A DNA stretch of 64,000 nucleotides from Cubamyces lactineus (taxonomy: Eukaryota > Basidiomycota > Agaricomycetes > Polyporales > Polyporaceae): positions 1,674,001 to 1,738,000 of the forward strand of contig JACDTU010000007.1 of assembly GCA_022376465.1 (NCBI GenBank), written 5' to 3'. The number at the start of each line of letters is the position of its first letter. The first letter of the stretch is position 1. Shown piece after piece: positions 8,247-43,002 of the stretch. The notes beneath the pieces were generated by a model. The model was not told where the DNA came from. It did not search any database and was given only the letters and a program-made list of their open reading frames with translations. Made by a program: the position numbers and the translations under genes.

Positions 8247-8413
8247 GCAGACGATGGTGGAAGGAGGGAAGGGACGCCTACTGCGACGCCCTGCGGGAGA
8301 GGATTCGGACCGTGTCGGACCGTCGACTTCCTACCATATTGGGATAAAGGAGGGTCGCCGTTGTTTCCTCCTTGCGGTCTTCTTTCCTTTCCACCACCTC
8401 CCTCCGTCCCAGC

Positions 8414-9684
8414 CCTGGCCATCTGCTCGTTGACCTCGAATCTGATAGCGCTGAACCTCAGATGGCGAACGTCTCACACTCGGTTTCTTATACTACTGGC
8501 ACAGTTGACGCACCACAGGATGTGCAAGACTTGACACGATCTTCGCCTCCTCCCCCTCTCCCAGCTCCGACCACTGTCTCCACGCGGTCACTTCGCCCTC
8601 GTCGTACACAAAGTCGTCCTTCTACACAGAGCTCGCGGGCATCTACCGTTGCTGCCTCGAGGTCACGTTCCCAGTCGGCCACTGAATCCCTACAACTCGC
8701 ATACCCCGATTCTACCGATGACACCACTGGGTCTACCAATGCGACCACGTCTGACCGTAGCACCACGGATGGTCTCACCACAACCAAAGAGAGCAGCAAA
8801 TCTAAAGATGGGAGGAAAAGGCGTAGGAATCAAGGGGTGTCCAGCGGAGATCCCATAAGGTCCAAAAGGCGGAAGGTGGCACACAATGCGTCTCCCGTTC
8901 AGGCAAGTGCTCTAGCTGAAGCAGAAGCATCCGCCGCGGGTGGTAGTACCATACCTTCTAGTCGTCCAAGTTCTCCGGATTCTGCCATTTCAGCAACGCC
9001 TTCGTACCCCACGAGTCATCCCGGCGCGCATGGTCTTCTGGAACGTGCTGACGAAGACCCCAGAGAGGCCTTTGAGCGAATGATGGCGGGAGGCGTAACA
9101 GATGCATCTGCAGCGCATGATGCGCAAGAAGACTCATCCGCTGATCCACCCGTTTCGCTTAATGCGGGCGACCGATCCACTAGAACTCCCACATCTCCTT
9201 CACGAGCTGATCAAGAAAGGTCTTCTCCTATGCCTGCCTCGTCGAACCCTACTGCGGGCCCCAGCTCTGCACCTCCCCACTCTATAACACCCGCACCAGC
9301 AAGAGCATCCGAAGGTGGCTCTGAGACTCGGGAGGCATCTCAGAGAGCCGAAGACATATCCGTTGACGATGTTCAACCCCTGGCATCATATACGTGTCCT
9401 ATCTGTTTTTCGCCGCCGACGTATGCTACAATTACACCTTGTGGACACGTTCTCTGTGGCGATTGCTTGTTTACGGCCGTCAAGACCACAATTCAACGGG
9501 GAGCGTACACTCTTCCCGCCAGTGAAAGAATGATTGCGAGGTATCTTGTCTTGTGACTGCCGTATGTGGCTCCACTCAAGATTCTCCTTGCAGGTGCCCT
9601 GTGTGCAGAGCCCAGATCCCCGGATGGGACGGAAGAGGTGGCGGAGTCATTGGATTGAGACCCCGGGCGGTGTTCAGTCTATGA
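8414..9684 (+). CDS. C3HC4 RING-finger protein with a SUMO-interacting-like motif (candidate SUMO-targeted E3 ubiquitin ligase)
   Basis: A long Ser/Thr/Pro-rich disordered region with basic clusters (GRKRRR, RSKRRK) leads to a C-terminal RING: CPICFSPPTY...TPCGHVLCGDC...ARCPVCRAQIPG. The last zinc ligand pair CPVC is supplied by a second exon after a 53-nt intron (9541-9593, GTATCT..CAG), and the protein ends ...GLRPRAVFSL. Upstream of the first in-frame ATG (8462) the frame still encodes LLVDLESDSAEP, a good SUMO-interacting motif, preceded by a pyrimidine tract and CAG near 8413. This suggests an exon boundary there and an unseen first exon. RING plus such motifs is the layout of Slx8/RNF4-type ligases; assignment to that group is inference. 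Confidence 0.7.
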
Positions 9685-34072: not shown

Positions 34073-34077
34073 CTAGT
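34073..34077. repeat. Target-site duplication, left copy (CTAGT)
   Basis: CTAGT directly abuts the first base of the LTR at 34078 and is repeated at 42998-43002 directly after the other LTR. Five bp is the usual duplication length for Ty3-type integrases. Confidence 0.9.
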
Positions 34078-34627
34078 TGTTACGCTTTCGAGCGTGACTC
34101 TTAAACTATCAAGCCTTAAGACGTCAATGAATAGAGAGCTTGTATCTATTCAGCTACTAGCCCTAGCTTGTCGAAGATAAGCGCGTAGTAGTATTTGCAG
34201 TTGAAAGCGAGTTAACGAGCAACCAAAGTCGTATTTCGCGAAGAGACTGAAAGCTGAGGGTCGCTCTATGGCGTCGCCTCTTATATACATGTATACCAGC
34301 CTGTAGACGGAACGTTCTAGCGTATACAAGGACTTTCTGGTGCGTAGTAGTCAGCGCTAGTCGAACCTAGTAACACTGTGGCAGTGCTGCTGTGTACTGT
34401 GCAGAAGCGCTGTGCACTGCGCGGAAGCGACTGTGCACTGTGCAGAAGTAACTGTGCATGGAAAGTCCTAGAGCATCCTAGATAATACGAGACTGTTCCA
34501 TAGAATCCGCCATATACAATCGTAGCTGGAGTCCCAGAGCCTACCATACTTGTATCGTACAGAGTAAGTACTAGAAACCGTTACCAGTTCGTCGAGACGT
34601 CGCAATACCTATTGTACATTCGTAACA
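34078..34627 (-). repeat. 3' LTR of the Ty3-type element
   Basis: It starts TGTTACG and ends CGTAACA, perfect 7-bp inverted termini within the TG..CA rule. It is identical by eye to 42448-42997. It contains a TATA box (TATATAA on the minus strand, 34287-34281) and, upstream of it, about 3.5 tandem copies of a 20-21 bp unit at 34390-34461 (CTGTGCACTGTGCAGAAG and variants). Confidence 0.95.
34390..34461. repeat. Tandem repeats in U3 of the LTR
   Basis: Three units of 20, 21 and 21 bp starting CTGTG(T/C)ACTG and a partial fourth lie about 100-170 nt upstream of the TATA box in element orientation. The same array is at 42760-42831 in the other LTR. Position and copy structure suggest promoter or enhancer elements; this is inference. 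Confidence 0.75.
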
Positions 34628-34631
34628 TCAG

Positions 34632-34641
34632 CTCCCCCTCC
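34632..34641 (-). promoter_or_regulatory. Polypurine tract
   Basis: On the minus strand GGAGGGGGAG is followed by CTGA and then the 3' LTR (TGTTACG). A purine run in this position is the expected primer for plus-strand DNA synthesis. The four-base gap to the LTR is slightly unusual, since the tract normally abuts it. Confidence 0.65.
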
Positions 34642-34661
34642 GCTGAAGGTCGTCCTCGACC

Positions 34662-35957
34662 TTAGAGGTGAACGATAGCATTGTTTCTCTCGACGACCTC
34701 AGGACGGAAGACATCCAGGGAGATCTGGACGAGCTCCGCATCGCTACCTACTGCTCGAATGCAGTCCCATTGAGCAGTCTCTGCCGCCGACATGCCTAAA
34801 GCCTCGCGATAAGTAGTCGCGATGCGTTCAGCGTCGACCTTGAAGGCGGGGTAATTTCCACGCCGGGCGATGACATCGTCGATGAGTAGGGAGGCGGCTT
34901 GGGTGGTCCTGACTGAAGCTTCCGGCCATCGGAGATGGTATGCGACCATGATCCGAACGTCAGAGATGCCGAAGGAACTGTTGGGGACCATGAAAATGTC
35001 GCCTCGAGAGTTGATGTATCCGAACCGATCTTCTCCGGTTCCACGAAAGAAACCGCATCGTCCATGGGGTTCCTCGACGTGCTTGGTGATCGTAGTCGGG
35101 GGAGGAGGAGGCGGGGAAGGGGCCCTTACTGCGACTTTCAGGGCTTCGTGGAACTCCTCTTCCGAGAGCTCGTCGATCGTGCTAAGCTCTAGTTGTTCGA
35201 GCTCAGGGAGTAAGTCGAAAGACTCGACTTCCGAATAGGAGGAGTCAGAACTTGAGGAGGATAGGGTCGGGGTCGACCCCTCAACTGAAGTCGGACCCCA
35301 TTTGATGGCTTCCTCCTCAGGATCAGGAGTGGAAACCTTCCAAGGGTCAGTCGAGGGAATGGACCATCCACCATCCGAGCGTACCTCGTCCTCGTCTTCT
35401 TCCTCATCCGAAGAATCGACCTCGATAGCTTGCGGGTAGTCATCGAGGCGTTGCGGCCAAAAGACATGCCCCCAACTATGCGTACCGTGTTGGTTACGCA
35501 GGGGCATCAGGTCCGAGAGTGCTCCCGCGACCTGAGGGTTAGCGAGCATAGAAATTACTTTCTCTGCCGCTTGAACCACTGCCTGATAGGCCTCGCTCGC
35601 AACTTGAACTACCTTCTTCTTCTCGGACTTGGGCGCCGACGTTCTCTGGTTGTGTTTGATGAGAACAGAGTAAGAGGGGGCGGCCCTGGCGAGAGCGCGG
35701 TAGACGTCGATGAGGTCCTTGACCTCAGGAAGATGGGCAATACGGGCCTCGACATGGCTGTAGAGGTCGGGGTGCACGATGACCCAGCCGACACGATCGG
35801 CGAGGGTGCCTTCGTCGTTGCACGAGACGGTGTGTCGGGGAAGATGGTTGTAGAAAACAGTGCGCCGTGCCCTAATGAAGTTGGGGGGACGGGGAATGTT
35901 GCGACGAGTCGCCTCAGAGAAACGACGACCAGTAAGACGAGTGTTGGTGTAGACCAT
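34662..35957 (-). CDS. ORF3: additional acidic protein encoded downstream of pol
   Basis: The ORF starts at ATG 35957 (MVYTNTRLTGRRFSEATR), 67 nt after the pol stop, and encodes 431 residues. The N-terminal third is basic to neutral and helical (AEKVISMLANPQVAGALSDL). The centre is strongly acidic and Ser-rich (EVDSSDEEEDEDEVRSD), with a Pro run. The C-terminal part looks folded (FFRGTGEDRFGYINSRGDIF, AETAQWDCIRAVGSDAELVQ). There is no signal peptide, membrane segment or furin-like site, so it is not an envelope protein. Most chromoviruses end at the integrase/chromodomain, so this ORF is unusual. Access may be by splicing, reinitiation or a subgenomic RNA; the sequence does not decide. Confidence 0.8.
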   Translation of the reverse strand: MVYTNTRLTGRRFSEATRRNIPRPPNFIRARRTVFYNHLPRHTVSCNDEGTLADRVGWVIVHPDLYSHVEARIAHLPEVKDLIDVYRALARAAPSYSVLIKHNQRTSAPKSEKKKVVQVASEAYQAVVQAAEKVISMLANPQVAGALSDLMPLRNQHGTHSWGHVFWPQRLDDYPQAIEVDSSDEEEDEDEVRSDGGWSIPSTDPWKVSTPDPEEEAIKWGPTSVEGSTPTLSSSSSDSSYSEVESFDLLPELEQLELSTIDELSEEEFHEALKVAVRAPSPPPPPPTTITKHVEEPHGRCGFFRGTGEDRFGYINSRGDIFMVPNSSFGISDVRIMVAYHLRWPEASVRTTQAASLLIDDVIARRGNYPAFKVDAERIATTYREALGMSAAETAQWDCIRAVGSDAELVQISLDVFRPEVVERNNAIVHL

Positions 35958-36024
35958 AGTGAATAGAGGAGAAATTTGTTCAGAAAATTCGAAGAGATAT
36001 TGGGTGAGGAGTGGGTTGAGTCCT

Positions 36025-39000
36025 TCACGACAACTTGTGCCTCTTCTTATAGTTGCGCAAGATCGACTGCGCGTTCTTGAGATGTCTTTCTGGTTCCCAA
36101 GAATTTTCCGATGCGGGCCAGCCCTTCCAAGCCACTAGATACTGCTTTTGGGTACCTCTAGTGCGGTGGCTCAGAATTGCTTCTACCTCCCATTCCTCTC
36201 CTTCAGTTGATTCAGGAGTGGGAATCGGTGGAGGTCGGACATAGTCTGGTCCGTGCTCCTTAGTTGTGTGGTACGGGGTAAGTAGCGCTGCGTGGAAGAC
36301 GGGGTGTATCTTCCATTTCTCCGGAAGCTTTAACTTAAATGTAACCGGTCCCAAGACCTTGACGATGGTGAACGGTCCCACTCGTTTTGGAATCAACTTC
36401 CTGGAGACATATGGAAGCCTGAGGTTCTTTGTATCGAGAAGAACCTTGTCTCCGAGCTTCAGCGGAACTTGCGCAGCGGGGAGCCTTCTTGACATAGCTG
36501 CGGCGGCCTGCGCATGCGCCGCTATTGTATTCTCCCTGGCTTCCTGAAGACTTTGAAGCCTCTGCTCCGTACTTGGATGCTTTGGGGTGGTTCGGACTGT
36601 CCCAACGGCCTCTGGCTGAAACCCGTAGAGTAGCTCAAACGGGGATTTTCCCGTGACAGAGTGTGTCCGCTGATTGTGCGCGAATTCGAATTGAGGCAGC
36701 AGTTTGGCCCAGTTCTCCGGATTGTTAGCACAGTAGAGCCGAAGTGCTAAGTCGAGTTCTTGATTTACTCGCTCCGTTTCCCCATCTGTCTGAGGATGGT
36801 AGGCCGTGCTGAGTGCCGTTTCAATTCCGAGGCTATTGTGTAGTTCTTTGAATGCCTTGGATATGAATTGCGGCCCCCGATCCGAGATGACCTTCGCAGG
36901 TAGTCCGAATCTGCGATACACATCCCTTTGCAGAATATCCATGGCTCCTTCTGCCGTAATATTCTTGGTGCAAGGGGAAAATACCGCTGCTTTGGATACA
37001 TCATGGTCGACTACCACTTGGACGGCATTAAAACCATCCGATTCTGGTAGATCGGTGATATAATCCATGGTAATTGTCCGGAAAGGCCTAGTATCCCCAC
37101 TGTGTTGAATGGGAATTAAGCCTGGTTTAATGGGATGCGTATTGACCTTGCTTGTTTGGCAAGCGGCGCAACCTTTGACATATTGCGCGATGAATTTCCG
37201 CATGCCTGGCCACATATATTCCTGTTTAACCAGATCATAGGTTTTCTGGACTCCTGGGTGTCCCATAATCGGTGCGTCGTGATGCATCTTGACTATATCA
37301 CGATACAATTGATTATCTGGTGGAACGTATACTCTGTTCTTGTACAGGAGTATTCCGTCGTCGTCGGACCAATCTTCTGGTTTGCCGAACTCTGGGCGTT
37401 TGGTAGCCTTTCCTTTTAGAGTAATGTACTCTACTACCGAGTTGTCCCGTAGCTTGCTATCACGGATGCGCTCTTGTAGCTCAACGTTGACAGCTTTGGC
37501 AAAAAGTTCTGGCCCTAGTAATACGACGTCCTTGTTGTCATTTTCCCCCCCGTCATGCCCTGATCTCCGAGAAAGGGCGTCTGCTTGAGTGAGGGATTTT
37601 CCGGGCTGGTGCTTGATTACGATGTTGAACTCCGAGAGGAATAAATGCCATCGCGCCTGTCTGCGATTTAACTTCTGCGCCGTACGGAAGTAGGTCAGAT
37701 TTTTGTGATCTGATAGGATTTCTGTAGGGTGTGGGGAACCCTGCAAAAAATGTCGCCATGCTTCGAGAGCTCGAACAATGGCTAACAATTCTCTATCATA
37801 AATCTGATAGTTCCGTTCCGCAGGAGTAAAGGACTTGGACAAATAGGCACAAGGATGCCATAGTCCGTCCTCTCCTTGCTGTCGTAGTACAGCACCTGTT
37901 GCGACCTTAGAAGCATCGCACTCAATCTGAAATGGTTTCTCCGGATCCGGGATTTGTAGGATCGGTTCTTCAGTAAACCGCTTCTTGAGTGTATTGAATG
38001 CTTTCTGACAATCAGAGGTCCACAGAAAAGGCTGGTCCTTCTTGGTTAATTCCGTGAGGGGTCGGACTATCTTTGAATAATCCCGAATGAACCGTCGGTA
38101 GAAATTACCGAACCCTAGGAATGCCTGAACCTGCTTGACTGTTTTCGGTGGTTCCCACTCGATAATTGCCTTGAGCTTTACTGGATCCATAGCGACTACC
38201 CCTGGCCGGATTATTGATCCTAGAAATTCGACTTCTTGTCTGTCGAATTCGCATTTTTCCGCCTTGAGGAATAGATCACTGTCTTGAAGTCGCTGTAAAG
38301 CTCTTCGCGTGCGTTTGTGATGGTCCTCGACATTGTCTGAGAATATCAGGATGTCGTCCATGTAAATGACCATCCATCCTTCCTGAAGCATGTCCCGGAA
38401 GAGATCGTTCATCATGTTCTGGAATGTGGCCGGTGCGTTGCACAAACCAAAAAACATGACTGTCGGTTCGAACAATCCGCTGGGTGTTATAAACGCAGCT
38501 TTCCACTCATCACCCTCTTTGATGCGAACATTATTGTACCCTGCTCGCACGTCGAGCTTGGTGAATATTGTGGCCCCTTTCAGCCGGTCAATGATGTCGC
38601 TGATGAGCGGCAAGGGATATGCGTTTTTGATAGTCCCCTCGTTAAGAGCCCTGTAGTCTTGAACAGGTCGAAGACTCCCATCCTTCTTGGTGACAAAGAA
38701 AAATGGCGAGGCTAGTGGAGACTTGGATTTTCGAATGTAGCCCTTCTCGAGGTTCTCCGCAATGAATTTGTCGAGTTCTATACGTTCCGTATAGGTCAGA
38801 GGGTAGATTTTCCTCCAAGACCCCTTGGTATGATGGTCGAAGTCCTTCTTGAATTCGATAGCATGGTCCCATGGTCTCGAGGGCGGAAATCTACTTGCTG
38901 CCTTTTTCTCAAAGACCTGTCGATAGTCCTTTACAAAATCAGGTAGGATTTCGTCCAAGGTCTTCTCCTTCTGGTCTTTCTTCGCTGCTATAGCGATCTC

Positions 39001-39684
39001 CGTAGACTTATTAATCTTTCGGATTTTCTTCTTGCGGTACCATAGCTCGATGGCCCTCGAAGGATTAAATGTAAGCCTTTCGGAGTCTGGGTCTGCGTCG
39101 TCCTCGTCCGGTATAGCACGTACGAACGATACGACCAGATCTTGATTTAGAGGTTTTACTGGGAAATTCCACAGCATCCCTTCGGGTGGGTCGTGCTCGC
39201 ATTGGTATTTATGGATCTGCTGCTGCTTCTTGATAATATCCGACTTGAAAGTAATGCGTCCACTTTCCCAGTCGATATTAGGATTGTACTTGCGGATCCA
39301 TGGCATGCCGAATAAGACATCGTCCCGCCCAATGTCGGCCACATACCAATTTGTTGGGAGCTTCTTCCCGTGTAGATTAAATGTCCCCTCCACCCGATGG
39401 GTAATGGTTCCCATGCTATTAACGCTATCGTCCGCGTTCCGGAAAGTCAGAGTCTTTGGTAGTCTGACTGTCGGAAGATTGTACTTGTCCACAATCTTTT
39501 TATTGACGATCACGGCATCCGCACCAGTGTCGATGAGCCCCTTGATTTCGACGGCTTTGTCCTGAACCTGCATGTAACCGGGTATCAGCAGAGCACTGCG
39601 TCTCCGCTCTGTATTGGTTACAATAGTTACATGCAGTTCCTTGGGCAAGTCAGGCGTCGAGTCTGCTTGCCTGCCTAAAAACCC
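36025..39684 (-). CDS. pol: Pol polyprotein: protease, reverse transcriptase, RNase H, integrase, chromodomain
   Basis: The frame is -1 relative to gag, has no ATG near its start, and is entered at the slippery site. Counting from the Leu codon at 39648, the protease motif is GLIDTGAD (Asp40). Reverse transcriptase has LDVRAGYNN and YMDD (Asp431, Asp432). RNase H has ECDAS (Asp578), YDREL (Glu620), SDHKN (Asp647) and TQADALSR (Asp690). Integrase has a zinc-binding H..H..CxxC (Cys827, Cys830) and the catalytic triad Asp862, Asp923, Glu959 with the canonical 35-residue spacing. A GPF motif (KRVGPFTIVKVLG) and a C-terminal chromodomain (EWEVEAILSHR, YLVAWKGWP, NSWEPERHL) follow. All catalytic residues are intact. 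Chromodomains guide chromovirus integration to heterochromatin marks. Confidence 0.97.
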   Translation of the reverse strand, partial: GFLGRQADSTPDLPKELHVTIVTNTERRRSALLIPGYMQVQDKAVEIKGLIDTGADAVIVNKKIVDKYNLPTVRLPKTLTFRNADDSVNSMGTITHRVEGTFNLHGKKLPTNWYVADIGRDDVLFGMPWIRKYNPNIDWESGRITFKSDIIKKQQQIHKYQCEHDPPEGMLWNFPVKPLNQDLVVSFVRAIPDEDDADPDSERLTFNPSRAIELWYRKKKIRKINKSTEIAIAAKKDQKEKTLDEILPDFVKDYRQVFEKKAASRFPPSRPWDHAIEFKKDFDHHTKGSWRKIYPLTYTERIELDKFIAENLEKGYIRKSKSPLASPFFFVTKKDGSLRPVQDYRALNEGTIKNAYPLPLISDIIDRLKGATIFTKLDVRAGYNNVRIKEGDEWKAAFITPSGLFEPTVMFFGLCNAPATFQNMMNDLFRDMLQEGWMVIYMDDILIFSDNVEDHHKRTRRALQRLQDSDLFLKAEKCEFDRQEVEFLGSIIRPGVVAMDPVKLKAIIEWEPPKTVKQVQAFLGFGNFYRRFIRDYSKIVRPLTELTKKDQPFLWTSDCQKAFNTLKKRFTEEPILQIPDPEKPFQIECDASKVATGAVLRQQGEDGLWHPCAYLSKSFTPAERNYQIYDRELLAIVRALEAWRHFLQGSPHPTEILSDHKNLTYFRTAQKLNRRQARWHLFLSEFNIVIKHQPGKSLTQADALSRRSGHDGGENDNKDVVLLGPELFAKAVNVELQERIRDSKLRDNSVVEYITLKGKATKRPEFGKPEDWSDDDGILLYKNRVYVPPDNQLYRDIVKMHHDAPIMGHPGVQKTYDLVKQEYMWPGMRKFIAQYVKGCAACQTSKVNTHPIKPGLIPIQHSGDTRPFRTITMDYITDLPESDGFNAVQVVVDHDVSKAAVFSPCTKNITAEGAMDILQRDVYRRFGLPAKVISDRGPQFISKAFKELHNSLGIETALSTAYHPQTDGETERVNQELDLALRLYCANNPENWAKLLPQFEFAHNQRTHSVTGKSPFELLYGFQPEAVGTVRTTPKHPSTEQRLQSLQEARENTIAAHAQAAAAMSRRLPAAQVPLKLGDKVLLDTKNLRLPYVSRKLIPKRVGPFTIVKVLGPVTFKLKLPEKWKIHPVFHAALLTPYHTTKEHGPDYVRPPPIPTPESTEGEEWEVEAILSHRTRGTQKQYLVAWKGWPASENSWEPERHLKNAQSILRNYKKRHKLS
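39644..39684 (-). promoter_or_regulatory. -1 programmed ribosomal frameshift signal between gag and pol
   Basis: In gag frame the sequence reads ACG GGT TTT TAG, giving the canonical heptamer G GGT TTT (39684-39678) immediately before the gag stop. After a 6-nt spacer (TAGGCA), a stem-loop can form: GGCAAG (39671-39666) pairs with CTTGCC (39649-39644), and CAG (39665-39663) pairs with CTG (39653-39651), with one bulged A and a 9-nt loop. Slipping back one base continues directly into pol (GGG TTT TTA GGC AGG). Heptamer, spacing and downstream structure all match the known requirements for -1 frameshifting. Confidence 0.88.
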
Positions 39685-41549
39685 GTCTCAAAATCTGTAG
39701 CCCTGAGTGCGTTAATAGAAATATTGTCCTCTTCGTCCTCTTCGTCCTCTTCGTCTGAGATCTCCTCAGACTCGTCCTCTAAGTCCTCGTCGGTAACCTG
39801 TCGTACCTTCCGACTGACGGGTTTGCCGGGCTTCTTAGGTTTAGAAGGACAGTCTCTGGAAATATGTCCCGGCTTCCTGCACCGGAAACATAGTCCCTTG
39901 TCTTGCAGCTCCTGTCTCTCCTTGACAGAGAGCTTGTTAATATCGAGCGAGTCGTCCTCGATATTAACCGTCTTGACATTCTTCCTAGTCTTCGAGGTTT
40001 TGGCCTTGCGTCCTCTGCGATTAGCCAAAATCTTCTCCATAAGGTGATAGCTATGGTCGATCTCCTTAGTCCTAGTCATCCACTCTTCAATGGTCGTCGG
40101 CGGAGGGTACGACATGGATATCTTCTTCAGTAAATATTCTGGAAGCGCATTCCTGTACAGGGCCAGTTGCGCTGCTGGGTCCAGAATTTTTCCCTTAAGA
40201 GCTAGATCCATGAACCTCGCATTGAACTCATCGACTGAAGAGTAGTCCTTGAGCTGTATCGTCGTGAGATTAACCATAGAGTCATCCACCTCGTCTACTG
40301 GGGCAAATGCGAGCAGGAAATTCCTCTTGAAGACCGGCCAAGAGTCAAATCCTCGATAGACTCCCGGTCTAATTTCCTCTTCAGCTCGCTGAATTGTGAT
40401 GTCCTTCCAGTAGTTTATATTGTCCCCTTCCATGAAGGATAGGGCCGTCGCCACCTTCGTGTAATCATTAACGAAGTCGTGGGGTCGCGCCGTGAACAAC
40501 AGGAACAGTTGATTGAGGAAGGACCTGGTTTTGTCTCGGTCTCCGTTGAAGACCTCAGGGTCCTTGATCTTGCCCTTTCCGTGTCCTTGCGGCGCATTTC
40601 CTGGAGCTTCTTGCGGTTCCGGGTCTGGGTCTGGTCCTGGTGGTCCTCCTCCTGGGGAGTAGGGATCTGAAGGCTCAGGGTCAGGCCGACCTCCGGGCCT
40701 ACCTGGTCCGCCTCCTCCTCCACCTCCAGAAGGATTGATAACTCCTCCAGAAATTGCCGTTGCCCGAGGGGCTGGTCCACTTGATAAAGACCCGTATCTT
40801 TCTCCTTCTGAGCCTTGCCCTTGCGGAGTGAACGCATATCTATGAGCTCCAGAAATGGACTCTCCTGTCGCTGTTCCCGACATGTACGATGGTACTGATT
40901 TTCGTACAAATTCTGGGGTTGCGCTGCGACCAGTATACTCCAATTCAGATTTAGTCTCCTCGACCTCTGTCTGAATATGCTCTTCTCTCGGTTCAGGTGT
41001 TTCTGCCTCGACCCGAGTGTCTTCTGTTTTCGGTGCAGGTACTACGACCTTAATCCGAATAGTTTCTTCGATTTTCGGTTCAGGTGCTTCGACCGTCGTC
41101 CGAAAAGTCTCGTCCTCCTTGTCCGAGTCCTCTACCTTAGACGGTTCGGTCTCCTTTCCTTTCTCCTTGAAGGATGGACCTGATTCCTTAGGTGATTCGG
41201 ATTCTTGAGGTTTCGGGGTTCCTACTCTTGAAGTCGGAAATGATCCTGACGCAACTCTCGGACTATTAATCCGACCAGTAGCTTTTCCAGCAAGTAGTGG
41301 TTTCTTGACTACCGCGGGTTGTCGTCCGTGGGTACTAGTAATATCCCGCTCTTGTGAGGAGTGTGTTAGGATTAAAGCCGATGCGTGCTTGACGTTTGGA
41401 ACCTCCTTAGTGTTGTACCGAAGTGGACACCTTTCGTTGGTGCAAAAATTCCACTTGTCTACGCTTTCTCGATAGTATACGTCCCGAGCTTTGTCGGAGT
41501 TGTAGAGATGATATAACCTTGAACAACTATATGGTTCAGCTGAACTCAT
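39675..41549 (-). CDS. gag: Gag polyprotein with retrotransposon capsid domain and zinc knuckle
   Basis: The ATG at 41549 is the first AUG of the predicted transcript in any frame. The protein has 624 residues. The N-terminus contains a small Cys-containing region (WNFCTNERCPLRYN). Residues about 115-210 are acidic and partly repetitive (EAPEPKIEETIRIKVVVPAP), and about 270-325 are Gly/Pro-rich. A capsid domain of the Retrotrans_gag type follows at about 330-510 (DPEVFNGDRDKTRSFLNQL, FDSWPVFKRNFLLAFAP, YRNALPEYLLKKIS). A CCHC zinc knuckle CFRCRKPGHISRDC (Cys554, Cys557, His562, Cys567) precedes an acidic tail, and UAG sits directly after the slippery heptamer. It forms the virus-like particle and binds the element RNA. 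Confidence 0.95.
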   Translation of the reverse strand: MSSAEPYSCSRLYHLYNSDKARDVYYRESVDKWNFCTNERCPLRYNTKEVPNVKHASALILTHSSQERDITSTHGRQPAVVKKPLLAGKATGRINSPRVASGSFPTSRVGTPKPQESESPKESGPSFKEKGKETEPSKVEDSDKEDETFRTTVEAPEPKIEETIRIKVVVPAPKTEDTRVEAETPEPREEHIQTEVEETKSELEYTGRSATPEFVRKSVPSYMSGTATGESISGAHRYAFTPQGQGSEGERYGSLSSGPAPRATAISGGVINPSGGGGGGGPGRPGGRPDPEPSDPYSPGGGPPGPDPDPEPQEAPGNAPQGHGKGKIKDPEVFNGDRDKTRSFLNQLFLLFTARPHDFVNDYTKVATALSFMEGDNINYWKDITIQRAEEEIRPGVYRGFDSWPVFKRNFLLAFAPVDEVDDSMVNLTTIQLKDYSSVDEFNARFMDLALKGKILDPAAQLALYRNALPEYLLKKISMSYPPPTTIEEWMTRTKEIDHSYHLMEKILANRRGRKAKTSKTRKNVKTVNIEDDSLDINKLSVKERQELQDKGLCFRCRKPGHISRDCPSKPKKPGKPVSRKVRQVTDEDLEDESEEISDEEDEEDEEDNISINALRATDFETGF

Positions 41550-42442
41550 ACACGTTGTGCTTGTCGTAGGAAAGCCTGATGTAGTTCCCTAGCTCGGAGG
41601 CAACTACGAAATTTCCTAAGATTTTCTTCGAGGTCTATATCTGCGTAGTTCTCCGGATTGAGGACCTTTGCTCGCAGGTAGTCAATCTGGTTCTGAAGAT
41701 ATCCCGCAAAGTTCCGTACCCTCGTTGGAGGCGTAACAGCTTGTCTTGGAATAAATTCGAGTGTCTGGATGACCTGAGTTATGTATCGATGGGCTCGTTC
41801 GAGAGTCGCGTGATATCTCCTCGTGAAGTCTTCCTGTCCTAGTACTTCCAAGTTATCTGCTATAACTCGAAGTGTATCGATCGCGTGCACCGGAAGCTGT
41901 GTTCTCCGATAGAATATCCCTGCCGTTGAGGATGCTTCTTCAACACTAGTTTCTGGAGTCGATCGATCCGAACTATCCGTTCCTGGACTCGCTCGGGTTG
42001 GAATGGGTACGCCTATTGCTACTCCTGATTCCGCCTGAATGGCCAGAGAATTCCTATATTCTCTCCACTCTTGTGTTCGCTGAAACGCGGGTTCGTGGTC
42101 CGATACTCGAGTGCTCTGACCCGACGATATTGAACCGGTACTTTCTACGTAAGGGATTGTCGAGCTAAAACCTCTTATCAAGGGGAATGGGGATCCTCTT
42201 GGCGAACTTGGGAGAGCAACTATATTCTCCGGGATCGCGAGTGGTGGTAGCCTCGGCAGTGTTTTGTTCCTTCCGTCTAGTACCCCGGGTGATTGTCGCA
42301 ATGGGGGTTGTGTAGTTCCCTCCGTATTGACTATCGTCTCTCTGTACGTTACGAGCAAGAGAGGGTTCTGATGCGTTTCGTAGTCGTTGTCTTCCGACGT
42401 AGGCCTCTGCACTTTTAACAAGTGGAGGGTTAAAGCTTTCAG
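41546..42442 (-). CDS. ORF0: long ORF without AUG upstream of gag
   Basis: The frame is open from 42475 (inside the LTR) to TGA at 41548-41546, about 310 codons, yet contains no ATG. No ATG exists in any frame from the predicted transcript start to the gag ATG. The stop overlaps the gag start as ATGA. Near-cognate starts in frame include CTG at 42442 (AGA CTG A, with A at -3, inside the primer-binding site) and TTG at 42421; the listed start is a guess. The N-terminal half is Pro/Ser/Thr-rich, the C-terminal half strongly helical (DTLRVIADNLEVLGQEDFTR, FAGYLQNQIDYLRAKVLNPE, LRKFRSCLRARELHQAFLRQ). It resembles no retroelement domain I know. Expression through a non-AUG codon is inference. Confidence 0.65.
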   Translation of the reverse strand: MKALTLHLLKVQRPTSEDNDYETHQNPLLLVTYRETIVNTEGTTQPPLRQSPGVLDGRNKTLPRLPPLAIPENIVALPSSPRGSPFPLIRGFSSTIPYVESTGSISSGQSTRVSDHEPAFQRTQEWREYRNSLAIQAESGVAIGVPIPTRASPGTDSSDRSTPETSVEEASSTAGIFYRRTQLPVHAIDTLRVIADNLEVLGQEDFTRRYHATLERAHRYITQVIQTLEFIPRQAVTPPTRVRNFAGYLQNQIDYLRAKVLNPENYADIDLEENLRKFRSCLRARELHQAFLRQAQRV

Positions 42443-42445
42443 TCT
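42434..42445 (-). promoter_or_regulatory. Primer-binding site, self-priming type
   Basis: Two bases inside the 5' LTR, the element strand reads AGACTGAAAGCT. This is the exact complement of AGCTTTCAGTCT in the same LTR (42625-42614), which starts about 32 nt downstream of the TATA box and so at the predicted 5' end of the RNA. The site does not start with TGG, so it is not complementary to a tRNA CCA end. The arrangement matches the self-priming mechanism known from Tf1 of fission yeast, where the first bases of the mRNA fold back on the primer site. Confidence 0.85.
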
Positions 42446-42447
42446 AA

Positions 42448-42997
42448 TGTTACGCTTTCGAGCGTGACTCTTAAACTATCAAGCCTTAAGACGTCAATGA
42501 ATAGAGAGCTTGTATCTATTCAGCTACTAGCCCTAGCTTGTCGAAGATAAGCGCGTAGTAGTATTTGCAGTTGAAAGCGAGTTAACGAGCAACCAAAGTC
42601 GTATTTCGCGAAGAGACTGAAAGCTGAGGGTCGCTCTATGGCGTCGCCTCTTATATACATGTATACCAGCCTGTAGACGGAACGTTCTAGCGTATACAAG
42701 GACTTTCTGGTGCGTAGTAGTCAGCGCTAGTCGAACCTAGTAACACTGTGGCAGTGCTGCTGTGTACTGTGCAGAAGCGCTGTGCACTGCGCGGAAGCGA
42801 CTGTGCACTGTGCAGAAGTAACTGTGCATGGAAAGTCCTAGAGCATCCTAGATAATACGAGACTGTTCCATAGAATCCGCCATATACAATCGTAGCTGGA
42901 GTCCCAGAGCCTACCATACTTGTATCGTACAGAGTAAGTACTAGAAACCGTTACCAGTTCGTCGAGACGTCGCAATACCTATTGTACATTCGTAACA
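42448..42997 (-). repeat. 5' LTR of the Ty3-type element
   Basis: It is identical by eye to 34078-34627. In element orientation it provides the promoter: TATATAA at 42657-42651, predicted transcript start near 42625, then an AUG-free leader. Its end (CGTAACA at 42997-42991 on the plus strand) abuts the target duplication CTAGT at 42998-43002. Confidence 0.95.
42651..42657 (-). promoter_or_regulatory. TATA box of the retrotransposon promoter
   Basis: TATATAA on the minus strand. The distance from its first T to the A of the self-primer (42625) is 32 nt, the usual TATA-to-start spacing, which independently supports the self-priming model. Confidence 0.75.
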
Positions 42998-43002
42998 CTA
43001 GT
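42998..43002. repeat. Target-site duplication, right copy (CTAGT)
   Basis: Matches 34073-34077 exactly and directly abuts the LTR end. Confidence 0.9.

Follow-up and report, generated by a model that had tools for sequence, protein, structure and literature searches.

Plant pararetroviruses have been described as combining a non-AUG start with leaky scanning over long distances (PMC5902531, in excerpt). In rice tungro bacilliform virus (RTBV) and the badnaviruses of the Caulimoviridae, ORF I is translated from an AUU codon and ORFs I and II, about 900 nt, contain no internal AUG; the second AUG has a moderate context, leaky scanning gives access to the later ORFs, and the stop codon of one ORF may be fused to the start codon of its neighbour (the same excerpts). 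In the Retrosat2/RIRE elements of grasses the gag-pol ORF is reported to be preceded by an additional ORF0, in a text that does not contain the term 'start codon' and whose excerpts do not mention AUG purging (PMC3485330). No LTR retrotransposon with long-range non-AUG leaky scanning was present among the literature matches listed. Here we describe a fungal element in which gag is preceded by an AUG-free leader and by an open frame, ORF0, that may be read from an ACG codon.

Results

Structure of the element

The window, by which we mean the whole 64-kb stretch of DNA analysed, contains a complete LTR retrotransposon on the reverse strand (Table 1), flanked by copies of the target duplication ACTAG at 42998-43002 and 34073-34077. 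Repeat detection gave a 300-nt identical core for the LTR pair, from which the ends were then read in the sequence. A Pfam search found the domain order PR-RT-RH-IN in pol, as in Ty3/gypsy, with a chromodomain (PF00385, E 1.9e-15) at the integrase end (pol residues 1166-1216), and pol matches Ty3 Gag-Pol with an E of 1.5e-131. The Retrotrans_gag-like match of gag is below the Pfam cut-off, and no Pfam family was found for ORF3. We class the element as a recent chromovirus (Ty3/gypsy) of the fungus, with 61 full-length close copies, the window element counted among them, besides other families.

The RNA start predicted in the initial annotation, 42625, is backed both by a TATATAA box, which the last U3 ATG (42660-42658) adjoins, and by the predicted RNA 5' end, which is complementary at 11 of 11 nt to the site beside the 5' LTR. 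This complementarity points to self-priming of the Tf1 type. The arms of a predicted stem-loop further downstream are retained in family D and in L079 despite their different frames.

Table 1. Features of the element and of its leader (positions in the window)
Feature	Position	Strand	Details
Ty3/gypsy LTR retrotransposon, whole	34078..42997	-	8920 bp; terminal repeats and flanking 5-bp duplication
5' LTR	42448..42997	-	550 bp; TGTTAC...GTAACA; ends read from sequence
TATATAA box	42651..42657	-	26-32 nt 5' of predicted RNA start; read from sequence
First 11 nt of predicted transcript	42615..42625	-	AGCTTTCAGTC; complement of primer-binding site
Putative self-priming primer-binding site	42434..42444	-	GACTGAAAGCT; just past 5' LTR; includes CTG at 42442
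Predicted stem-loop	42404..42428	-	CCUCCACUU...AAGUGCAGAGG; just 5' of ACG; without covariation
Candidate ORF0 start, ACG	42398..42400	-	codon 26 of stop-to-stop frame; ACG in 45/45 close copies read
ORF0 from ACG	41546..42400	-	284 codons + TGA; ATG-free in every frame before gag ATG
Predicted hairpin	41523..41558	-	gag AUG in stem
ATGA, gag start fused to ORF0 stop	41546..41549	-	U at -3, A at +4
gag	39675..41549	-	624 aa; Retrotrans_gag-like, CCHC zinc knuckle
ATG-free N-terminal part of gag	40884..41546	-	residues 2-222
gag Met223 (PSYMS)	40881..40883	-	first ATG past gag start; gag frame
Predicted gag-pol -1 frameshift site	39678..39684	-	GGGTTTT then TAG; read from sequence
pol	36025..39687	-	1220 aa; protease, RT, RNase H, integrase, chromodomain
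ORF3	34662..35957	-	431 aa; after pol
Polypurine tract	34632..34641	-	GGAGGGGGAG; read from sequence
3' LTR	34078..34627	-	550 bp

AUG codons in the leader and in gag

The element strand was said to carry no ATG from 42625 to the gag ATG at 41549, and the opposite strand about twelve; our recount gives 0 and 12. The accompanying expectation of 15-17 ATGs agrees with the base composition (15.9) but shrinks to 6.4-6.5 when dinucleotides are kept, and 1 of 1000 dinucleotide-preserving shuffles of the leader reached zero. ATG is the only one of the 64 trinucleotides absent from the leader and also has the lowest z-score. Considering either strand of the window, the longest ATG-free run (1111 nt) extends from the ATG at 42660, and the next longest (666 nt) begins at the gag ATG.

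Leaders were read in 45 of the 61 close copies, the window's own included (41 plus 4), skipping L001-L026, which are the same places as L031-L056. All 45 are free of ATG, while the other strand has 11-14 in close copies. The first 41 read comprise 36 distinct leader sequences; among the 37 of them with a 1080-nt leader, 72 distinct substitutions would be expected to create 3.8 ATGs and created none (P 0.02). When the protein and codons of ORF0 are held, 4.5 off-frame ATGs are expected and none is observed (0/1000 shuffles); counting the overlapping gag ATG as one, 5.0 are expected (P 0.002). Codon choice shows the purge directly. Before G, 0 of 14 His, Asn, Asp and Tyr codons in the purged zone end in T, compared with 26 of 52 before other bases (P 0.0004) and with 42 of 97 where codons preceding G were counted in gagC, pol and ORF3 (P 0.0009).

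The purge was originally placed at 42625-41549. This zone stands, but its end does not: apart from the gag ATG itself no ATG occurs in any frame until 40883, which extends the purge into gag as far as 40884. Off-frame ATGs in gag residues 2-222 number 0 against 2.8-2.9 expected in two window-family copies (P 0.018-0.026), and T-ending codons before G 0 of 6. The signal in this part is weaker than in ORF0. For family D the codon tests covered L072-L075, leaving out the broken L076 and L077; the gag part is depleted in L073-L075 (P 0.018-0.035) but not significantly in L072 (P 0.12), and the off-frame purge of ORF0 is not significant in L073 (P 0.14). All six family D leaders read contain ATGs, 1-8 per copy, which look like decay because none is common to all six. 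No clean full-length family D copy was found, only a 5' part, in L078.

The fusion of the gag start to the ORF0 stop is kept in 41/41 close and 6/6 family D copies. The context of the gag AUG is poor. Among 118 folding windows, the one with the hairpin predicted around this AUG ranks second lowest in z; in family D the hairpin is weaker, with z from -0.02 to -2.07. The next AUG, that of Met223, has U at -3 and is hence not a strong start either; the first internal Met of Gag in four diverged relatives (P0012, P0019, P0020 and P0021) is this same conserved Met. By eye, the 43-nt overlap contains no slippery heptamer for -1 frameshifting from ORF0 into gag.

ORF0 and its start codon

The frame, put at about 310 codons in the initial annotation, measures 309 codons from stop to stop (42475-41546). 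From codon 24 onward it is free of stops in all 41 close copies that were checked, and for the remaining 20 of the 61 no ORF0 stop is reported anywhere. dN/dS was calculated for ten chosen pairs. Against the 72%-identical family D it is 0.36-0.38 (five pairs), compared with 0.89-1.17 in shifted control frames, while close pairs are uninformative (0.64 for L035-L068 and 1.44 for L035-L058); the 41 close copies show 38 non-synonymous and 24 synonymous variants. The gag dN/dS of L072 is unreliable because its gag carries an insertion. By these sequence comparisons ORF0 is a protein gene under purifying selection. Full-length relatives of similar length exist at 45-55% identity, and neither the window ORF0 nor its relatives P0002, P0004, P0005, P0006 and P0009 have an internal Met; P0001, which represents 215 sequences, has one. 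No relative was confirmed in viral and genome contig collections. ORF0 gave no match in Pfam, a best match of E 1.1 in the fold search and no kinship to Gag in a profile comparison. Its structure model has a mean pLDDT of 49, with only residues ~196-306 mostly above 70, all helical.

The start of ORF0 had been sought near 42442-42421, but ACG at 42400 now appears likelier and is probably the start codon. Both codons upstream of codon 26 that a transition can turn into a stop have mutated to stop (6 of 61 copies), while none of the 29 such codons downstream has done so (P 0.002-0.004). Four close copies have TAG at codon 23 with the rest of ORF0 still open, and in these ACG is the first near-cognate codon past the TAG, AGG24 excepted. 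They have a second derived change in common and four different flanks, and the lineage has therefore spread by transposition, although other copies might have mobilized them in trans, which would count against the ACG. The aligned codon is ACG in L078, in L079 (a third family) and in three of six family D copies, the others having ACA, ATG and ATG; in family D and L079 a TAA shuts the frame shortly upstream. The context of the ACG in the window family is unfavourable (C at -3), and folding just downstream of it showed no structure that might aid initiation (z -0.34).

Discussion

Initially it was proposed that ORF0 is translated from a non-AUG codon on the mRNA that also yields Gag, and both the purge and the dN/dS support this, translation itself being inferred. 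The sequence directly shows the purge and its extent, selection on ORF0, the AUGA fusion and the poor context of the gag AUG, from which we deduce the RNA start, non-AUG initiation, the ACG and leaky scanning as the chief route to Gag only as probable. We think it likely that a single unspliced polycistronic RNA is scanned much as in tungroviruses to give ORF0, Gag and Gag-Pol. A minority of scanning ribosomes would initiate at a near-cognate codon, most likely the ACG, and make a 284-residue ORF0 protein; the remainder would pass through the AUG-cleared ORF0 and initiate Gag at the AUG fused to its stop, and Gag-Pol would arise by -1 frameshifting. Ribosomes missing the poor gag AUG would find the next one only at Met223, in the gag frame, and there would be no out-of-frame product since no AUG intervenes. 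An extension, possible though on balance doubtful, is a three-step leaky-scanning operon: ORF0 from ACG, a long Gag from the hairpin AUG and a short capsid-nucleocapsid Gag from Met223, over about 1.74 kb otherwise AUG-free, with one RNA setting the ratio of the three products. The gag part of this pattern has another explanation, which does not exclude leaky scanning and whose chances we put only slightly below even: that the Met-free part and the conserved PS[YF]MS reflect low-complexity composition and a protease site at Y/F-M. Residues ~110-222 are indeed charged low-complexity sequence, an aromatic residue followed by Met is a plausible cleavage site for a retroviral-type protease, and the U at -3 of Met223 is forced by both Tyr and Phe. 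Against it stand the missing off-frame ATGs, though in L072 these are not significantly depleted, and the choice of codons before G.

It would seem unlikely that Gag comes mainly from ribosomes that have terminated on ORF0 and then reinitiate at the AUGA. Such coupled termination-reinitiation would fit the invariant overlap and a gag AUG that is poor in context and lies within a predicted hairpin, and the other full-length ORF0 relatives end in V, I or A, with which an NNA-TGA junction is possible. However, a ribosome translating ORF0 would ignore off-frame AUGs, so that the off-frame purge of ORF0 and of gag residues 2-222 is left unexplained. Non-AUG starts are usually inefficient, and an inefficient ORF0 start would then starve Gag. 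That ORF0 begins farther 5' than the ACG, whether at CUG 42442, which is part of the primer-binding site, or at UUG/GUG 42421/42412, is distinctly improbable. The CUG has A at -3, shares the ORF0 frame in the window family and is followed 11 nt downstream by the predicted stem-loop, a layout said to aid weak starts (PMC5902531, in excerpt); a GUG could be the codon called as M in P0001, P0004, P0005 and P0009, which are known as proteins. These candidates are nevertheless separated from the open ORF0 by the TAG at codon 23 in four copies with different flanks, in family D and L079 they are out of frame or severed by the TAA, and protein similarity to family D sets in only at about codon 25. 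That ORF0 or Gag is made from another RNA, either one that begins in U3 and brings an AUG of its own or one spliced at a conserved GTGCAG/AGG, we regard as very unlikely. A frame of 46 codons does start with the ATG at 42660, but this ATG is situated immediately 5' of the TATA box, and the likely 5' end of the RNA is suggested by the self-priming complementarity. The GTGCAG/AGG motif looks like a 3' splice site, which the change to GTGTAG (four copies and L079) would preserve, and in the deposited Cerioporus protein P0010 a foreign N-terminal part precedes the region homologous to ORF0, as though the gene model had been extended to an upstream exon. Against this, splicing within the leader cannot supply an AUG, there being none between the predicted RNA start and gag, the frame across the motif differs among families, and a leader removed by splicing would have no cause to be purged. 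AUG-poor leaders are common, and ORF0 might be untranslated, the leader merely being kept clear of upstream AUGs, but this is hardly credible given its dN/dS against family D, its 284 codons without a stop in 61 copies and its similarly long relatives.

A recent, high-copy fungal element with its purged zone intact would make it possible to test over what distance eukaryotic ribosomes scan and how LTR elements gain an extra protein without splicing. As ORF0 has no AUG, AUG-based annotation will miss it or attach foreign sequence to it; the Cerioporus record P0010 appears to be such a case. Further genes of this kind might be detected by screening open frames for AUG deserts confined to one strand.

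Comparison with known systems

The features of the element, namely the 11-nt complementarity between predicted RNA 5' end and post-LTR site, gag, pol in the order PR-RT-RH-IN and the chromodomain, liken it to the Tf1/sushi elements, which are self-primed chromoviruses of Ty3/gypsy. Unlike them it carries two further ORFs, the purged ORF0 on the 5' side of gag and another on the 3' side of pol. An extra ORF0 before gag is shared with Retrosat2/RIRE as excerpted, a likeness of position. The AUGA overlap recalls the victoriviruses and SART1-type LINEs, whose coupled systems have an AUG-started upstream ORF; AUG purging is not known to be part of coupled termination-reinitiation. Caulimoviridae have a movement protein and lack LTRs and integrase, both of which are present here. 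The element also differs from RTBV in being a fungal LTR retrotransposon, in its candidate near-cognate ACG where RTBV uses AUU, in a third AUG that lies inside gag in the same frame, and in a leader without the AUG-started uORF that shunting needs; set against the RTBV ORFs, ORF0 is without a Pfam or fold match. What it shares with RTBV is the lack of AUG, in every frame, from the leading ORFs, and a second ORF, here gag, whose AUG has a weak context (a moderate one in RTBV).

Structure of the element and its surroundings

The element carrying ORF0, the ATG-less open frame 5' of gag, is a Ty3/gypsy chromovirus, because its pol matches models for protease, reverse transcriptase, RNase H, integrase and chromodomain, as well as the Ty3 polyprotein. 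It is flanked by a 5-bp target duplication, ACTAG, and has a polypurine tract; the LTR boundaries were read from the sequence, the repeat search itself giving a 300-nt identical core. TATATAA lies 26-32 nt upstream of the inferred RNA start, gag ends in GGGTTTT-TAG and pol is in the -1 frame. In Tf1-type elements the 5' end of the RNA pairs with a site by the 5' LTR to prime its own copying, and the layout here, as read from the sequence, is alike, with an exact complement of the inferred transcript's opening 11 nt adjoining the 5' LTR.

Features of the window
Feature	Position	Strand	Evidence or content
LTR retrotransposon, 8.9 kb	34078-42997	-	terminal repeats, target duplication, polypurine tract
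LTRs, 550 bp each	42997-42448 and 34627-34078	-	repeat search and reading of ends
Inferred RNA start, first 11 nt	42625-42615	-	
Candidate self-priming site	42444-42434	-	exact reverse complement of 42625-42615
Lowest folding z (-4.7)	42431-42490	-	lowest among 118 windows of the 5' region; spans LTR end and primer-binding site
Probable ORF0 start, ACG	42400	-	codon 26 of the stop-to-stop frame starting at 42475
gag N terminus	41549-41220	-	C9, H14, C36, C41 invariant across six aligned sequences
208-codon frame	40415-41041	-	overlaps gag in another frame
ORF after pol, 431 aa	34662-35957	-	begins 67 nt past the pol stop
Open frame, 2016 codons	48757-54804	-	Helitron_like_N, DUF6570, PIF1 helicase domains
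Open frame	8348-9553	+	RING finger

The ORF after pol gave no match in a Pfam search. Sequence similar to its 3' end occurs in L078, a derivative of the approximately 72% identical family D, which suggests that this ORF is a lasting part of the element group. L078 itself, with a deletion from ORF0 to ORF3 and an LTR attached, is possibly a non-autonomous form. The invariant cysteines and histidine of gag may form a zinc-binding domain; the 208-codon frame is probably a by-product of a repetitive acidic and glycine-rich stretch. The 2016-codon frame represents a Helitron with its frame uninterrupted.

ATG is purged from the leader

The initial annotation had noted that no ATG occurs on the element strand between 42625 and the gag ATG at 41549, against about twelve on the opposite strand, and the counts are indeed 0 and 12 in 1077 nt. 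Its expectation of 15-17 agrees with that from base composition (15.9) but drops to 6.4-6.5 when dinucleotides are kept, making the contrast smaller. When both the ORF0 protein and its codons are preserved, the expected number of off-frame ATGs is 4.5. ATG is the sole trinucleotide absent from the leader, with the lowest z of 64. Chance is thus a poor explanation. Codon choice is a telling sign of the purge: NAY codons before G never end in T in ORF0 plus gag residues 2-222 (0/14), compared with 26/52 before other bases and 42/97 before G elsewhere. For A before TG the difference was not significant (0/6 versus 17/49, P 0.16).

In the assembly (36.3 Mb, 43 contigs) ORF0 is full length in at least 61 close copies (94-100% protein identity), with at least one partial copy and some remnants besides, and a family D that is about 64-72% identical, all counts being lower bounds. 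The depletion predicted for related copies held in the close ones: 41 fetched copies (36 distinct leaders) have no leader ATG and 11-14 antisense, and four additional copies agree. From their own spectrum, the 72 distinct substitutions in 37 of these leaders would be expected to create 3.8 ATGs, yet none arose (P 0.02). The six D copies read are old and carry 1, 2, 2, 2, 7 and 8; no single ATG is common to all six, and ORF0 has stops in two. L078 is free of ATG up to position 394, which is past its deletion junction. L079 is broken and is taken to represent a third family (E); its first 819 bases contain no ATG.

The purge continues in all frames for 666 nt into gag, up to Met223, beyond which ATG density is ordinary. 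In 38 of the 41 fetched copies and in the four additional ones the following ATG falls at +666, and in one at +663; two of the 41 have new ATGs, at +138 and +154. Of the 41, 35 keep gag open over all 500 codons read. Three of the six D copies have their next ATG at the homologous +582. For the gag relatives P0012, P0019, P0020 and P0021, the first internal Met is this same residue, in a conserved PS[YF]MS (195, 197, 186 and 195, respectively). Against this, some copies do have ATGs in the zone: an additional Met precedes the start by two codons in P0011, and the N-terminal Met of P0013 and P0014 falls inside it. Trametes cubensis has a recorded gag with 90% identity across the searched part, and Cerioporus squamosus a recorded relative of ORF0, so a polypore is the probable host.

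ORF0 is a protein gene with a probable ACG start

The proposed dN/dS comparison of ORF0 favours a protein: against D, five pairs give 0.36-0.38 where shifted frames give 0.89-1.17, and the start of gag gives 0.39-0.47; the five close pairs (0.30-1.44) were uninformative. ORF0 relatives from other data have 281-302 residues, 45-73% identity and a common end position. Internal Met is absent from P0002, P0004, P0005, P0006 and P0009 and from the shorter pieces P0003 and P0007, and occurs once in P0001; P0008 and P0010 have two each, upstream of the ORF0 homology. ORF0 is thus a protein gene.

The in-frame near-cognate codons include CTG12, TTG19, GTG22, AGG24 and ACG26. A start near 42442-42421 had been suggested, but ACG 42400 is preferred. 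Six of the 61 copies have in-frame stops, TGA at codon 6 (two) or TAG at codon 23 (four); these are the only codons upstream of 26 that one transition turns into a stop, and both are mutated, while none of 29 downstream is. The TAG23 copies share a second derived change and have four different flanks, so this lineage spread with its stop in place, relying either on proteins of its own or on borrowed ones. In D and L079 a TAA shuts the frame a few codons upstream of the aligned ACG. The window's family and D differ in the frame in which they read the motif AAGTGCAGAGG preceding the ACG, and the motif supplies the 3' arm of a predicted stem-loop; it is therefore conserved at the RNA level rather than the protein level. 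All 45 close copies read, as well as L078 and L079, carry ACG at this codon; of the six D copies aligned, three have ACG, two ATG and one ACA. Taken together, this makes ACG 42400 the probable, if not assured, start.

Proposed mechanism

Ribosomes translating ORF0, or a spliced RNA, would not need a purge; the purged zone is probably the track of scanning ribosomes. If so, most ribosomes would bypass the ACG and scan about 850 nt to the gag AUG, which has U at -3 and lies in a predicted hairpin. Those missing it would find the next AUG, Met223, still in the gag frame. Met223, whose own context is poor, could start a short Gag or be only a cleavage site. Coupled restart at AUGA might contribute additional Gag.

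Comparison with known systems

Extra ORF0s 5' of gag are already known from grass elements, as described in part of PMC3485330. Titles and abstract openings gave no case of leaky scanning or a non-AUG start in LTR or gypsy elements, nor such a case among retrotransposons with ACG starts, elements of Trametes or of polypores, or ORFs lying upstream of gag; subscription literature lay mostly outside this scope, and novelty is not proven. The sections covered of PMC2864245 and PMC3248453 do not mention such a feature, and a search within PMC7264820 turned up no passage. In rice tungro bacilliform virus, according to passages of PMC5902531, ORF I begins at AUU and 900 nt are free of internal AUGs. 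The window element would share this logic while belonging to a different group of reverse-transcribing elements; it differs in having no uORF for shunting and in not being a caulimovirid.
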